Source: Pseudomonadota bacterium
GTDB taxonomy: Bacteria; Desulfobacterota; Desulfovibrionia; Desulfovibrionales; Desulfovibrionaceae
Assembly: GCA_018822105.1 (NCBI GenBank)
Contig: JAHJLB010000001.1
Coordinates: 62,001 to 126,000 of the forward strand
Reading direction: 5' to 3'
Length of the DNA stretch: 64,000 nt
In this document: positions 43,869 to 49,355 of the stretch, in pieces
Layout of the letters: each line of letters opens with the position of its first letter
Position numbering within the stretch: position 1 is the first letter of the stretch
Program-made: the position numbers and the translations under genes
Notes under the pieces: model-generated
Seen by the model: the letters and a program-made list of their open reading frames with translations, nothing else
Databases searched by the model: none
What the model was told of the DNA's origin: nothing

Positions 43869-43945
43869 TCGTGTCCAGGCAAATTCGCACTACACAATAG
43901 AGGTTGGGCTGCCTGCCCCCCTTCCTCGCCTTTGAAGGAGCATAT

Positions 43946-45673
43946 ATGCCTCAGCCTGCCTCGGCCAGCATCAAATCCCGGTTGGCCTTCTCCGGCCTGA
44001 TCCTCGTGGGCGCGGCCAGCGCCTTGTTTGCCACCAGCTTCTGGCCGGACACCTCCCTGGCCCTGCGCTTGGGGCTGTTTTTGCTGGCCATGCTGGGTGC
44101 GGCGGCCCTGTTCATGACCGTGCATGCTCAGCTTGTGCTGCCGCTGGACGCCCTGCGCGGATACGCCAGCCAGATCGCCAAGGGCACGGCTGCGGCCTGC
44201 CCGGCCCAATCCATGCCCAGCGAGTTCGCCGACCTGCGCGAGGTCTTGTGCGGTCTGGTGGTGCATCTGGGCAAGGCCGCCGAGGTTGCGCGGGAGAAGG
44301 AGGCCCAGGCCGAAAGCGAGACCGCCTCCACCCAGCGCGTCCTGGCCGAGAGCCGCGAGAAGGAGATGGCGATGGCCGAGCTCCTGGAGAACATGCGTGT
44401 CGCTTCGGCCAAGGCCAAGACCTCCGCTGAGCGCATCTTCGGGGCCGTGCGCGAACTCAATGGCAACATGGAGCAGGTGGGCAGCGACGTGCAGGTGCAG
44501 ACCGAGCGCGTTTCCGCCACCACACTGGCCATGGAGCAGATGAGCGAGGCCATCCTCGACATCGCCCGCAACACCGGCGACGCGGCCCAGAGCGCCGACC
44601 GCGCCAAGGGCAACGCCCAGACCGGGGCCAAGGGCGTGCGCGAGGCCGTCACCTCCATCGAGCGCGTCAAGGACCGCATCCTGGCCCTGAAGGAGACCAT
44701 GACCAGCCTGGGCAACCAGGCCGAAGGCATCGGCCAGGTCCTGGGCGTCATCTCCGACATCGCCGACCAGACCAACCTGCTGGCCCTGAACGCCGCCATC
44801 GAGGCCGCCAGAGCAGGCGACGCGGGCAGAGGCTTCGCCGTGGTGGCCGACGAGGTGCGCAAGCTGGCCGAGAAGACCATGACCGCCACCAAGCAGGTGG
44901 GCGACTCCGTACGCAGCATCCAGGAGCGCGCCCGGGAGAACGTGGTGGCCGTGGACGCCGCCGCCTCCGACATCATCGAGAGCTCGCGCGTGGCCGAGGA
45001 ATCCGGCCACTACATGGAGGAGATCGTGTCCATCGTGCAGGAGACCGCCATGGAGGTGGCCTCCATCGCCACGGCCAGCGAGGAGCAGTCCGCCACCAGT
45101 GAGGAGATCAACCGCTCTGTGGCCGAGATCAACCAGGTGGCCCGGAAGACCGCCGCAAGCGTGGAGCAGTCCGCCCGCGTGGTGGTGGAGATCTCCGGGC
45201 TGGCCGAGGAGTTGGACTCCATCATCCAGGGCATGGCCAGCGGCAAGCTCTCAGGCGTGTCTTCGGACAAGCTCATGGAGTGGTCGGGCGACCTGTCGGT
45301 GGGCATCCGGCTCATCGACGAGCAGCACCAGGTGCTTCTGGGGCTCATCAACGAACTGCACACGGCAATGCGCGCGCGCAAGTCCGAAGCGGTGCTCGCG
45401 GGCGTTGTGCAGCGCCTCAAGGAATATACGGTGAAGCACTTCGGCCAGGAGGAGGAGTACTTCGACCGATACGGCTATCCGGAATCCATCCAGCACAAGG
45501 CCGCCCACGCCAAGCTGGTGCAGCAGGTGCTGGACTTCGAGGCGGGCCTGAAGAGCGGCAAGGCCAAGGTGACCATGGAGATCATGCGCTTCCTGAAGGA
45601 CTGGCTGGTAAGCCATATCCAGGGCACGGACAAGCGCTACAGCTCGTTCCTGAACGGCAAGGGCCTCCACTAG
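43946..45673 (+). CDS. Methyl-accepting chemotaxis protein with C-terminal bacteriohemerythrin domain
   Basis: A 575-aa receptor. Two hydrophobic helices lie near residues 13-33 and 40-60 with almost no periplasmic domain between them, followed by a signalling region with the hairpin-tip pattern [20 protein letters not shown]. Residues 443-575 form a hemerythrin: [18 protein letters not shown] and HIQGTDKRY supply the di-iron ligands. DcrH of Desulfovibrio vulgaris has the same ending and senses oxygen or redox state. AAGGAG lies 5 nt before ATG 43946. Sensing is expected to be cytoplasmic. Confidence 0.92.
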
Positions 45674-45824: not shown

Positions 45825-47057
45825 CTATTCCAGGTCCACGGCCTCGGCCAGGTAGCCGCTGAACAGGTGCACGGCCGCGGGCACCTCATGGGCCTTGAGC
45901 CCGTCGCGGATGCCGTCCTCGCAGTTGTGGCAGGCCACCACGGCCACCTCGGCCCCGGTGGCGCGGATGCACTCGGCCTTGGCCCTGGCCGTGGCCAGGC
46001 GCTTCTGCTTGTACTCGCTCATGAGCCCGTGCCCGCCGCCGGAGCCGCAGCAGTAGGTGTGCACGCCGTTGGGGTGCATCTCCCGGAAGTCCGCCGCGAC
46101 ATGGTCCAGGAGCAGGCGCGAGTCCTCGAAGTGTCCGGCGTTGCGGATGAAGTTGCAAGAGTCCTGGAAGGTCATGGGCTCTTTGTGAAAGTGATGCTTG
46201 AGCTTCAGCCGGTCCTGCCGGAAGAGGTCGGCCCACATCTTCATGGGCGCCACCACCTCGAAGGGAAAGTCACGTTTCAGCCAGTTGGGTCCCTCAAACT
46301 TGAGGGCGCGGATGGAGTGCCCTCACTCCGCCGTGAGCACCGTTCGGACCCCCAGGTTTTCGCCCGCCGCCACCACGCGGCGGCACATCTCCGTGGCCCC
46401 GGCGTCGTCGCCCGCGAAGAGGCCCAGGTTGGTGGAGTCCCAGCCGGTCTCGCTGGTGAGGGTGAAGTCCAGCCCGGCGGCGTTGTACAGCTTCAGGTAG
46501 CCGTAAAGGTTCTGGGGGTAGAACTTGATGTCGCGCGGGTGGAAGGTCAGCATGACCTCCGCGCCCTTCTTGTCCATGGGGGCCTTCGCGTCGGGCATCT
46601 CGGCCTGGAGCTCCTCCAGCTGCCACTCCACGGTCTCCAGGTACTCGTCCTGGGTGATGCCCAGGTTGTTGCCGATGGAAAGGGCGTTGGCCAGGCCGTC
46701 GGCCAGGCCCTTGGGTGTCAGGCCCTGGCTCACGGCCAGCGAGCGCGTGGCGCGCACCAGGAAGGGCACGGAGATGCCGTGGGGGCAGAACATGGTGCAG
46801 CGCTGGCACATGGTGCAGGTGCCGTAGGCCACGTCCACCAGCCACTGAATGAAGGCCTCGTCCACCTCTCCCTTTTTGCGCAGGAGTTCGGCCAGGGGCT
46901 TCAGGCGGTAGGCGGGAACGTGCTCGGGGATCGGGTCGGACTGGAAAAAGTGGCAGCCCTGGGCGCACAGCCCGCAGCGCGCGCAGATCTCCATCCACAG
47001 CTTGAGCCGCGCGCCGCTCTTGCCCGCCAGGGCGGTTTTCAGCTTGGCGATGTCCAT
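45825..47057 (-). CDS. HdrD/TmcB-like iron-sulfur protein, probable selenoprotein with in-frame TGA
   Basis: One reading frame of 411 codons interrupted only by TGA at 46325-46323 (codon 245). The N-terminal part has two [4Fe-4S] motifs, CARCGLCAQGC (25-35) and CTMCQRC followed by C91. The C-terminal part is a complete CCG domain: DSCNF, TYCCGSGG, ACHNC. The TGA falls in VLTAE-TGA-GHS, where this family has Cys in E-C-G-H. A hairpin with a G in the second loop position follows at 22 nt, as in bacterial SECIS elements. The protein is read as 410 aa with Sec245. Family relatives (HmcF, TmcB, DsrK, HdrD) reduce disulfides or pass electrons to membrane cytochrome b. A TGC-to-TGA error or pseudogene is the alternative. 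Confidence 0.8.
46291..46325 (-). promoter_or_regulatory. Candidate bacterial SECIS element
   Basis: On the minus strand, 22 nt after TGA, CCCUCA pairs with UGAGGG around the tetraloop AGUU. The loop has G in its first two bases, and the distance fits the 16-37 nt range of bacterial SECIS models. An overlapping stem, GAGGGC/GCCCUC, begins inside the TGA. Confidence 0.55.
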
Positions 47058-47087
47058 CAGGTCTCCTTGAAACGGATATTCCGGGGG

Positions 47088-47747
47088 CTACCAGGCGCCC
47101 ACGCTGCGCTTGCCGAAGTCGCTGCCGGTGACGGCGCGCGAGACGAAGAAGAGCACGGCGTGGGAGAGCTTGGTGCAGGGCACGGCCAGCAGCAGAAGAT
47201 TTGCGGAAAGCACATGCAGGGTGATCAGGAGGTCGTAGTCGCCCCACTGGCGAAAGGCCATCAGGCCCGTGAGCATGGGCAGGGCGGTGAGCGCCAGCAC
47301 CAGCCAGTCCGAGGGCGTGGTCAGGGCGCGCACGTGCGGCAGGGCCAGCCGCCGCCAGACGAAAAAGGCCGCCGCGGCCAGGAACAGGTACGTCAGCCAG
47401 TCCGCGGCCTCGTCGGGCAGGGCGGGCCAGGAGAGGTTCCAGGCCAGGTCCACCAGCACCACGTGGGCCGAGAAGCACAGCGCCACGGCGAGGAGCGCCA
47501 GGTGGAAGGCGAACCCGGCCAGGGTCATGAGCGGGTTCGCCCGCGCGGTGATGTTGGCGGGCACCAGCCAGTGCAGGACGCTCTTCAGCGCCCAGGCCGG
47601 GCGGAAGCCCTTGAGGGCGGCGGGGTCGGCCTTCTGGGCCAGCAGGATGAAGCGCAGCACGCGCCACGCCGATCCCAGCGCGAACACGCTGAAGGAGAAG
47701 GCGAAGAGCGGTCCGGCGGCAAAATCATACACGCTGAGCAGGGTCAC
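47088..47747 (-). CDS. TmcC/NarI-like membrane cytochrome b subunit
   Basis: A 219-aa integral membrane protein with about five helices and several intramembrane histidines (e.g. FAFHLALLA, LITLHVLSAN, KLSHAVLF) suited to binding b hemes. This is the pattern of NarI/DsrM/TmcC-type quinone-interacting subunits. The start is GTG 47747 with AGGAGG 5 nt upstream. Its partner iron-sulfur gene begins 30 nt downstream, so the two form a quinone-linked redox module. The cytochrome c (TmcA) and Trp-rich (TmcD) subunits of a full Tmc complex are absent nearby. Confidence 0.8.
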   Translation of the reverse strand: MTLLSVYDFAAGPLFAFSFSVFALGSAWRVLRFILLAQKADPAALKGFRPAWALKSVLHWLVPANITARANPLMTLAGFAFHLALLAVALCFSAHVVLVDLAWNLSWPALPDEAADWLTYLFLAAAAFFVWRRLALPHVRALTTPSDWLVLALTALPMLTGLMAFRQWGDYDLLITLHVLSANLLLLAVPCTKLSHAVLFFVSRAVTGSDFGKRSVGAW

Positions 47748-48072: not shown

Positions 48073-48113
48073 GACTTCTCTGCTTTGTCTTTGATTGACA
48101 AAGCAGAGAAGTC
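48073..48113 (-). terminator. Terminator of the mini-island operon
   Basis: A perfect 17-bp stem (GACTTCTCTGCTTTGTC and its complement) around a 7-nt loop, followed on the minus strand by TCTCTTTT. It lies 10 nt after the last island gene. Confidence 0.85.
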
Positions 48114-48123
48114 CCCCGAACAG

Positions 48124-48279
48124 TCAGCCTGAAGCGTTTGCCGCTGCCTTTACGGTCACCTTGGGCTGTTTAAACACGCTTTGATCGAAGACAATATACC
48201 CAACCGTACGCTTTGAGGTCTCGTCGGGTTTTGTCTGCCGCTGCTTGTCGTGTTCGGTCGGTATTGTCTTGTGAGACAT
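48124..48279 (-). CDS. Small 51-aa island protein
   Basis: A 51-residue, Lys/Thr-rich, hydrophilic protein (starts MSHKTIPTEHDKQRQ, ends KVTVKAAANASG). CTGGAG lies 6 nt before ATG 48279 and overlaps the end of the preceding gene, whose stop is 2 nt upstream, so translation should be coupled. It is followed directly by the terminator. No family recognised. The good ribosome-binding site and exact packing argue that it is real. Confidence 0.6.
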   Translation of the reverse strand: MSHKTIPTEHDKQRQTKPDETSKRTVGYIVFDQSVFKQPKVTVKAAANASG

Positions 48280-48281
48280 GT

Positions 48282-48956
48282 TTACTCCAGATTGTGAGAT
48301 CTTAAAATGTCTTTTGCCTCGTTCCGTATATGTGAGGAGTCAATGTACATGATGCGCAGCCAGAGAAAAATGCTAAACAAGTCCGAGAGGATGAAGGCGA
48401 ATCTGGCATCGTTCTCTACGTCAAAATAATTAGCAGAGGGATGGTCCATGCACAAAAGCCCAAAGACGGGGTCAAAATGGTTATCCTCTAAGGTCCCTAT
48501 GTCATCAGGAAAGGCAACATGTAAAGATCTTTCCTTCACCTTCTGGATCAGGGCACCCGCAAAGTCTGAACCGACTTGGTTTCTCAGGGCGATGGGGATG
48601 ACGATGGTCGATTTATAGCAAGAGTCACGAGAGGGGGGGACATTACCAATGCTGCGCCAGCACGCGACCCAGGCAGGATCATTGTGCCTTAAGTATTTGA
48701 TACGCAGACGCTGCCACACGCTAAGTATGTATTCTTCCCTCACGCGGTCGATGTCTAGCCGGTCGTTGTTGTAATCTGGAGGGTCCTTGAGGCAGGCTGC
48801 TGGGATGTCAGGGCAAGAGTAATAGTCTACTTTTTCTTCATATATACGGTATGCGGCAGAGCCTGGATTGATGGTTGTTTCGTGATCACTGTAGCTGCAT
48901 GGTCTGCTCCGGCGGCGTGACTTTAGGACTACCACCCCGTTGCGGTTTGTCGACAC
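48282..48956 (-). CDS. Island protein with possible GAF-like domain, unknown function
   Basis: A 224-aa protein starting at GTG 48956, 9 nt after the upstream gene. The C-terminal half has the look of a GAF-type sensor: STIVIPIALRNQ, then VFGLLCMDHPSANYFDVEND, then a hydrophobic helix (FILSDLFSIFLWLRIMYI). The N-terminal 70 residues are polar with several cysteines. Codon use is AT-rich and unlike the host genes. I cannot name a family. Its company and position in an island would fit an accessory trait such as defence or stress sensing, which is speculation. Confidence 0.65.
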   Translation of the reverse strand: MSTNRNGVVVLKSRRRSRPCSYSDHETTINPGSAAYRIYEEKVDYYSCPDIPAACLKDPPDYNNDRLDIDRVREEYILSVWQRLRIKYLRHNDPAWVACWRSIGNVPPSRDSCYKSTIVIPIALRNQVGSDFAGALIQKVKERSLHVAFPDDIGTLEDNHFDPVFGLLCMDHPSANYFDVENDARFAFILSDLFSIFLWLRIMYIDSSHIRNEAKDILRSHNLE

Positions 48957-48965
48957 GAGCTTGAT

Positions 48966-49349
48966 TCACAGCCTTGGACAGTCTTCTCGCTTGTTACGCG
49001 ATGTAAAGTAATTCTCGAGGGTTTCGAATAGCTTGTTGGATGCAACATCAATCGCTTCGCCAACATCCCGCTCAATTTTTGCCGTTCTATCTTTTATCAC
49101 TTTGGCGTTACGCAGTTTCTCCGCCGAACTCCTTAAGGGGCGGTATGCCTCAATGCTTTTCCTGAGTCGTTTGTGTTCTTCACCGAGAAGAAACGATTGT
49201 TGTATTATTTCAGCCTGATAGTAGCAGACAATTTTTTTAACGCGCTCAAATTTAGTTTTGAATAATTGTGTAGCAAGCCAGCGTCTAACGGGCTTTACGG
49301 CGATGTGGAGTGCCGACATAACCAATTCGAAAGCGGACATAATCTCCAT
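48966..49349 (-). CDS. Island protein, helical, unknown function
   Basis: A 127-aa protein, first gene of the island operon. It is basic and helical, with a hydrophobic N-terminal stretch (about 5-20) and a long charged helix region (about 55-110) that could form a coiled coil. ATG 49349 has no ribosome-binding site but coincides with the predicted transcription start, so it may be leaderless; ATG 49340 has GGAG only 3 nt upstream. Family not recognised. Confidence 0.6.
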   Translation of the reverse strand: MEIMSAFELVMSALHIAVKPVRRWLATQLFKTKFERVKKIVCYYQAEIIQQSFLLGEEHKRLRKSIEAYRPLRSSAEKLRNAKVIKDRTAKIERDVGEAIDVASNKLFETLENYFTSRNKREDCPRL

Positions 49350-49355
49350 GGATGC

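Follow-up and report, generated by a model that had tools for sequence, protein, structure and literature searches.

When two neighboring open reading frames share one frame and are parted by a single TGA, do they represent two genes, one broken gene, or one selenoprotein gene? We addressed this question for a Desulfovibrionaceae locus within a 64,000-nt stretch of DNA (the window; GC 67%). Two ORFs lie on the minus strand, one at 47057-46323 (244 aa, ATG start) and the other at 46256-45825 (143 aa, GTG start). They begin 801 nt apart, and the sole interruption is the TGA at 46325-46323, an arrangement that matches the original prediction, in which the strand was left unstated. Reading through the TGA yields a 410-aa product in which ...LTAE-U245-GH... 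is followed by DSCNF, YCCGSGG, and CHNC, the downstream motifs named in that prediction.

On sequence grounds, the locus almost certainly encodes a selenoprotein. We propose that SelB and tRNA-Sec, acting at a SECIS hairpin, would decode UGA 245 as selenocysteine (Sec) to produce a single 410-residue subunit. The proposed gene (45825..47057, minus strand), for a Sec-encoding TmcB/HmcF-like (HdrD/DsrK-type) iron-sulfur subunit, extends from the ATG at 47057 to a TAG stop at 45825-45827, and a Shine-Dalgarno-like AAGGAG read from the sequence precedes the ATG (47063..47068, minus strand). Standard annotation would split this gene in two, masking a probable respiratory selenoprotein in Desulfovibrionaceae. 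An Rfam scan of the gene returned three matches, all sub-threshold and irrelevant.

An in-frame TGA at a conserved cysteine column

Homologue alignment shows that the in-frame TGA (46323..46325, minus strand; Sec245) occupies the column of the Cys in E-C-G-H. In a family-wide comparison of 68 homologue rows (at least 200 query residues aligned, copies of one record excluded), the motif E-[C/TGA]-G-H was present in 65, with Cys in 44 and TGA in 21, so that the column is indeed Cys in HmcF/TmcB-type homologues, as had been claimed. The three rows lacking the motif comprise L038, which ends early at a contig end, L023, which ends early at a TAG, and L045, a second paralogue that reads PDCGGG.

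The TGA recurs wherever close relatives were sampled. Within the genus, an orthologue was found in 7 of 15 genomes (six complete, including the window, and one contig-end fragment), each with TGA at codon 245. Among 199 genomes of the family sample, 12 gave matches at E<=1e-100, and all 13 matches carry the TGA; one genome (G037) holds a second protein, 41% identical, that also has it. A collection of named genomes contributed 12 loci, again with TGA in every one, although six are the same records as the genus genomes and the whole set of 12 consists of metagenome assemblies. At the phylum level, 27 of 395 genomes had a match at E<=1e-92, with an internal TGA in five (window included) and none in 22. 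Homologues with TGA at this position, proposed as a check of the prediction, were thus recovered in five further genus genomes in full, one fragment, and additional genera. Close relatives with TGC, which the original prediction had named as a refutation, did not appear; Cys forms were found only at ~45% identity or less.

In a tree built from 66 rows (21 with Sec and 45 with Cys, after two cut-short rows were dropped), partly unsure at L094 and other long branches, the window sequence falls in a clade of 13 rows with 100/100 support. All 13 have the TGA, spanning several genera at 60-89% identity. The tree requires five changes of state, at least four of which are forced by well-supported branches, and both states occur within one genus (g53). 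On this tree, the residue would have alternated between sulfur and selenium more than once, possibly in either direction.

The sequence on both sides of the TGA is under purifying selection. Between the window gene and five genus members, dN/dS is 0.22-0.28 on the 5′ side and 0.14-0.16 on the 3′ side; the corresponding values against three more distant sequences are 0.18-0.60 and 0.40-0.57. This is not the behavior of a broken gene. Residues 246-267, which belong to neither ORF, include eight that do not vary among 11 sequences (G246, H247, L252, F254, E255, P257, W259, and F266).

SECIS-type hairpin and selenocysteine machinery

The original prediction also included a SECIS-like hairpin 22 nt after the TGA. 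A constraint scan and covariation support a bacterial SECIS-type hairpin, CCCUCA-AGUU-UGAGGG, at 46291..46306 (minus strand), with a 6-bp stem beginning 16 nt past the TGA, a 4-nt loop (AGUU) 22 nt past it, and an energy of -8.1 kcal/mol. These values satisfy the bacterial constraints given in passages of a 2026 review (loop 3-9 nt, stem 4-16 bp, G within the first two loop positions, spacing 16-37 nt, energy at most -7.5; PMC13188914). The hairpin is present, conserved, and covarying, but it is weak evidence standing alone: 140 of the 1395 TGA trinucleotides on both strands of the window also fit this model when the stem is set to at least 6, an equally long helix arises at the hairpin site in 511/2000 synonymous recodings, and the 81-nt fold has z = -1.07. 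We therefore dropped any claim of significance from the single hairpin, which is not above chance; what exceeds chance is the conservation of the TGA across the clade, the purifying selection after it, and the covariation of the stem.

Comparison across rows separates the two forms of the gene. The longest helix at the SECIS place measures 4-8 bp in the 21 Sec rows versus at most 3 bp in 43 of the 44 Cys rows, and all four SECIS constraints were passed in the constraint scan by 12/21 Sec rows versus 2/44 Cys rows. Taken alone, the apical stem is weaker than -7.5 in L054 and L063-L066, and another helix scores best in that scan for L062, L069, L070, and L075. Recoding of the 21 Sec rows reached the observed helix 247-511 times in 2000 for 15 rows and 8-29 times for six (L067, L085, L056, and L045-L047). 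In six genus sequences, the minimum-energy fold of a 57-nt stretch is a different helix, with the UGA inside it.

Within the window clade (13 rows, 11 distinct), pairing across the stem reaches 90.9%; 4/11 distinct rows show a double change (A-U to G-C), and the outermost pair is broken in 6/11. Its covariation score of 0.224 was reached by 0/500 shuffles (0.132 +/- 0.030). Eight Sec rows of other lineages share an 8-bp stem, shifted in register by one, that is 95.3% paired with 14 double-change cells and one column pair broken in three rows; the score here is 0.527 against 0.204 +/- 0.051, again reached by 0/500. The shuffles ignore relatedness, and these counts are not probabilities. Two of the five covariation measures (pairs with a double change, and pair types) were not above shuffles in either Sec set.

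The one exception among the Cys rows (L074/L098, genome G202) carries, at the SECIS position, a 7-bp hairpin whose loop is GUU, and this genome (91% complete) gave no SelB match at E<=1e-65. It is a candidate for Sec-to-Cys reversion with a fossil SECIS, being a single case that can also be chance. Reduced synonymous change around the SECIS was not used as evidence; several hairpin codons are quiet, and other 7-codon windows are quieter.

All components of the selenocysteine machinery are encoded in the window genome, namely tRNA-Sec (81.9 bits), SelB (373.7), SelA (581.5), and SelD (323.7). The expected selA, selB, selD, and tRNA-Sec are thus in place, and their absence, the other refutation envisaged for this locus, did not occur. 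Across the genus, SelB scores over cut-off in 12/15 genomes. The misses (G004, G009, and G013) are 73-84% complete, and G004 bears the second TGA paralogue (L046). SelB presence was rejected as an explanation for Sec versus Cys, since it was detected in 14/16 Sec-form genomes (it was missed in two that are 73% and 76% complete) and in 20/22 with the Cys form. SelD of the window genome (L096, G000:C10:18145-19074) itself contains one in-frame TGA, within G-U-A-A-K (U-x-x-K), and is probably a selenoprotein.

These data bear on whether the TGA could be a true stop. If so, the locus would yield a ferredoxin-like product of 244 residues and, from an internal start, an independent C-terminal CCG protein; otherwise it would be a pseudogene broken by nonsense or would contain a sequencing error. 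ORF calling does yield two ORFs, the second with its GTG start, the hairpin alone is within chance, and a fragmentary genus orthologue (L015/L068) has a TAG at codon 53 besides the Sec TGA, reflecting either a draft assembly error or a broken copy. We nevertheless regard a true stop as very improbable given the identical TGA throughout the clade, purifying selection on both sides of it, a break that hits the sole conserved Cys of that half-domain, the covarying stem, and the eight invariant positions outside both ORFs. Reading of the TGA as another residue, through a reassigned code or simple readthrough, is more improbable still, as nothing specific favors it beyond the compatibility of SECIS-free readthrough with the sequence, while the full Sec machinery, Cys in the other 44 motif rows, the conserved hairpin, and the in-frame TGA of SelD in the same genome all speak against it.

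Subfamily placement and the membrane partner

For the protein read through in this way, the closest curated model is HmcF (NF045711; 336.9 bits, cut-off 750), followed by TmcB (NF045724; 315.6, cut-off 735) and DsrK (NF045796; 192.7, cut-off 400). By these sub-cut-off NCBIfam scores, the protein is placed in the HdrD/DsrK/TmcB superfamily and in none of the named subfamilies. Pfam domains CCG (PF02754; 39.6 bits, gathering cut-off 20.6) and Fer4_8 are both over cut-off. The protein shares with TmcB of TmcABCD its domain order, the E-C/U-G-H motif, the CCG domain, and a TmcC-like partner encoded upstream. It differs from TmcB in scoring far below the cut-off, in forming a separate clade on the tree, and in having Sec rather than Cys.

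That partner is a TmcC/HmcE-like membrane b-type cytochrome (47088..47747, minus strand), for which we propose a GTG start at 47747 after AGGAGG. The membrane subunit lies directly upstream of the Sec gene in 18/18 clade loci, some being one record fetched twice, and four of its His residues are conserved in an alignment of 12. It scores below cut-off for both TmcC (226 bits, cut-off 240) and HmcE (183 bits, cut-off 275). A profile built for it detected the partner in 17 of 20 further loci, the three without it being L045-L047.

An associated cytochrome c is found in only part of the clade. In 4/12 clade loci scanned (L064-L067, from a set comprising the window and L057-L067), a TmcA-like cytochrome c ORF stands ahead of the membrane subunit. 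These ORFs score 57-104 bits to TmcA (cut-off 114), and the L066 copy looks frameshifted. No TmcA-like gene was found near the window copy, a difference from the TmcB context; no ORF with at least two CXXCH motifs was seen in the 12 kb of the window scanned, nor at L057-L061. Four-CXXCH ORFs lie just downstream of a Sec relative (G037, L056/L102; L102:5544-6308) and a Cys relative (G330; L103:6010-6480), which indicates that a c-type cytochrome adjoins the gene pair in other lineages too. At L062 and L063, the position occupied by the TmcA-like cytochrome in L064-L067 is taken by a gene with a PocR domain (sensory; Pfam) directly upstream (L062:3655-4188, L063:3697-4212).

The window genome (G000) also encodes two over-cut-off TmcB proteins, both adjacent to an ORF with four CXXCH motifs, and a single HmcF of 792.6 bits (contigs C54, C4, and C53; L106, L107, and L109, the last being the HmcF), and none of these three genes has an in-frame stop. 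The Sec unit would therefore be an additional, Tmc-like complex. Our protein is very probably its selenocysteine subunit, which would assemble at the membrane into this Tmc-like complex with the TmcC-like cytochrome b of the gene immediately upstream.

The unit has further neighbors in the window. A chemotaxis receptor with a C-terminal haemerythrin domain (43904-45673) lies beside it, as in 4/4 genus relatives with enough flank. Between the membrane subunit and a YifB-like gene is a stretch of low GC (48098-49350; 48% vs 67% for the window), in which two minus-strand ORFs (48282-48956 and 48966-49349) gave no Pfam or NCBIfam match. The YifB-like gene and the membrane subunit gene are 9 nt apart in L058 and ~950 nt apart in L060.

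The predicted noncubane cluster site and related selenoproteins

What might selenium do in such a subunit? Two ferredoxin-type Cys sets, C25, C28, C31, and C35 (46953..46985, minus strand) and C81, C84, C87, and C91 (46785..46817, minus strand), are invariant in alignments of 11 and 12 rows. The same holds for the five Cys of the complete CCG domain (45921..46157, minus strand), and C301, C336, C337, C376, and C379 are predicted by analogy with EtfD to bind one noncubane [4Fe-4S] cluster. Sec245 sits in a degenerate first CCG half, apart from these five ligands.

An AlphaFold2 model from 12 sequences was of moderate quality (mean pLDDT 75.3, pTM 0.79), with values <50 at 27-51 and 85-96, the ferredoxin loops. 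Its best fold match was EtfD (Z 24.3), ahead of an uncharacterised Helicobacter pylori protein (3kwl; Z 19.6, 6% identity, 5.3 A), the integrative model of LutA (18.4), and HdrB (17.3-18.1). The window protein has the same fold and five-Cys noncubane site as HdrB (5odc) and the Mycobacterium smegmatis EtfD (9ojn). Sequence alignments pair U245 with EtfD C581, H247 with H583, and S248 with C584. As described in passages of the EtfD paper, C581 and C584 bind a linear [3Fe-4S] cluster, His583 completes the noncubane cluster, and the two unusual clusters serve as an electron wire (PMC13083937). Neither EtfD nor HdrB contains Sec; the place filled by a linear [3Fe-4S] cluster in EtfD and by a second noncubane cluster in HdrB has only Sec245 in the window protein (same passages, PMC13083937). 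In the stretch that starts 100 residues ahead of Sec245 and ends 50 beyond it, the 12 clade sequences have no Cys position in common, so that the first cluster has presumably been lost, leaving Sec as its only remnant.

The EtfD and HdrB comparison suggests that the selenol points toward the noncubane cluster. The E-U-G-H loop, derived from the degenerate first CCG half, would cover this cluster, with H247 where EtfD caps its cluster by His and Sec245 where EtfD and HdrB hold the first cluster, missing in the Sec protein. At one end, electrons would be exchanged with the menaquinone pool or, in relatives with a TmcA-like gene, with periplasmic cytochrome c3, and would pass by way of haem b, two [4Fe-4S] clusters, and the noncubane [4Fe-4S] cluster (C301, C336, C337, C376, and C379). 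At the other end, the selenol and noncubane cluster may exchange electrons with a cytoplasmic disulfide, for example that of DsrC or another thiol carrier. To our knowledge, substrate handling by HdrD/DsrK/TmcB-type subunits is not settled.

A redox role for Sec at the noncubane site is somewhat favored; the original prediction held that, if it were right, a catalytic Hdr-type site carries selenium, which we infer rather than observe. More tentatively, and with less confidence, selenium may act directly at the noncubane [4Fe-4S] site of a membrane-bound Tmc-type complex, the selenol and cluster making up the whole disulfide-exchange site. If true, the complex would be a selenium-dependent disulfide reductase, linked to quinone or cytochrome c3, in which the first Hdr-type cluster has been lost.

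Alternatively, Sec could be inserted yet non-catalytic, serving a structural purpose or supplying a further ligand by which the noncubane cluster is tuned or protected, with the subunit only passing electrons as EtfD does. The best structural match wires electrons through two clusters, one of them completed by His583, according to the passages cited (PMC13083937), and H247 of E-U-G-H occupies the place of that residue. Relatives with Cys at the same place mostly have SelB in their genomes (20/22), which is also compatible with such a role. Recurrent Cys/Sec switching at one site, and selenium at the sole conserved chalcogen of the half-domain, instead suggest redox chemistry, without proof, and we consider the non-catalytic role rather unlikely. 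The family offers a natural series of Cys and Sec forms at a residue that otherwise does not vary, with the Sec machinery common to most of the genomes, and so points to the residue to test. That residue is a spectroscopic and mutational handle on electron exchange between a noncubane cluster and thiols in sulfate reducers.

Selenoproteins of this general kind have been reported before. "Fe-S oxidoreductase (GlpC)" selenoproteins were described in 2006, with Desulfovibrio vulgaris among the sources (PMC1794560), a readthrough cluster that includes DP1009 in 2007 (PMC1914089), the HdrD-type selenoproteins hdrD4 and hdrF2 of Desulfobacterium autotrophicum HRM2 in 2009 (PMC2702500), and one such selenoprotein in a marine deltaproteobacterium in 2021 (PMC8318568). 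The 2026 review describes an Fe-S oxidoreductase-like selenoprotein with the motif UGH (PMC13188914). In excerpts of three sources, this GlpC family (COG0247/PTHR43551) is listed as predicted with high confidence and, like the window protein, combines an in-frame UGA with U-G-H in an Fe-S oxidoreductase of Deltaproteobacteria (PMC13188914, PMC9312934, PMC1794560). The window protein carries this motif, with E-U-G-H at 244-247 along with CCG and Fer4 domains. The window clade may already figure in the review's UGH list (example WP_174406253.1).

The context differs, however. The GlpC family is described in an operon glpC-hdrA-frhD-frhG-frhA (excerpts of PMC1794560) versus the TmcC-like membrane partner in the window. 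By description, hdrD4 and hdrF2 are HdrD-type selenoproteins like ours, but the account of hdrF2 includes a fumarate-reductase domain and a membrane region (passages of PMC2702500). Searches of open-licence PMC papers yielded no report of a Sec-containing Tmc or Hmc subunit, an HmcF with selenocysteine, or a DsrK selenoprotein, nor a DsrMKJOP cryo-EM paper on the site of DsrK. The passages of PMC5109826 name five Sec genes, none Tmc, and those of PMC2702500 contain no Sec TmcB, with further selenoproteins in its Table S3. The kind of protein is thus already known as a UGH Fe-S oxidoreductase-like selenoprotein, and its complex context is apparently undescribed. Apparently new are the Tmc-type setting, the all-Sec clade, the at least four Sec/Cys switches, and, in comparison with EtfD and HdrB, the placement of Sec beside a noncubane-cluster site.

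The window genome also carries a second TGA-containing HdrD-like gene (L045:6440-6493, contig C4; also at L046 and L047), with E-U-G-H and an 8-bp hairpin. At L045 it adjoins another HdrD-like gene and ORFs resembling, by eye, HdrB, HdrA, and a universal stress protein. This paralogue is perhaps the already described GlpC-type selenoprotein and appears, by eye, nearer to the hdr-linked kind.
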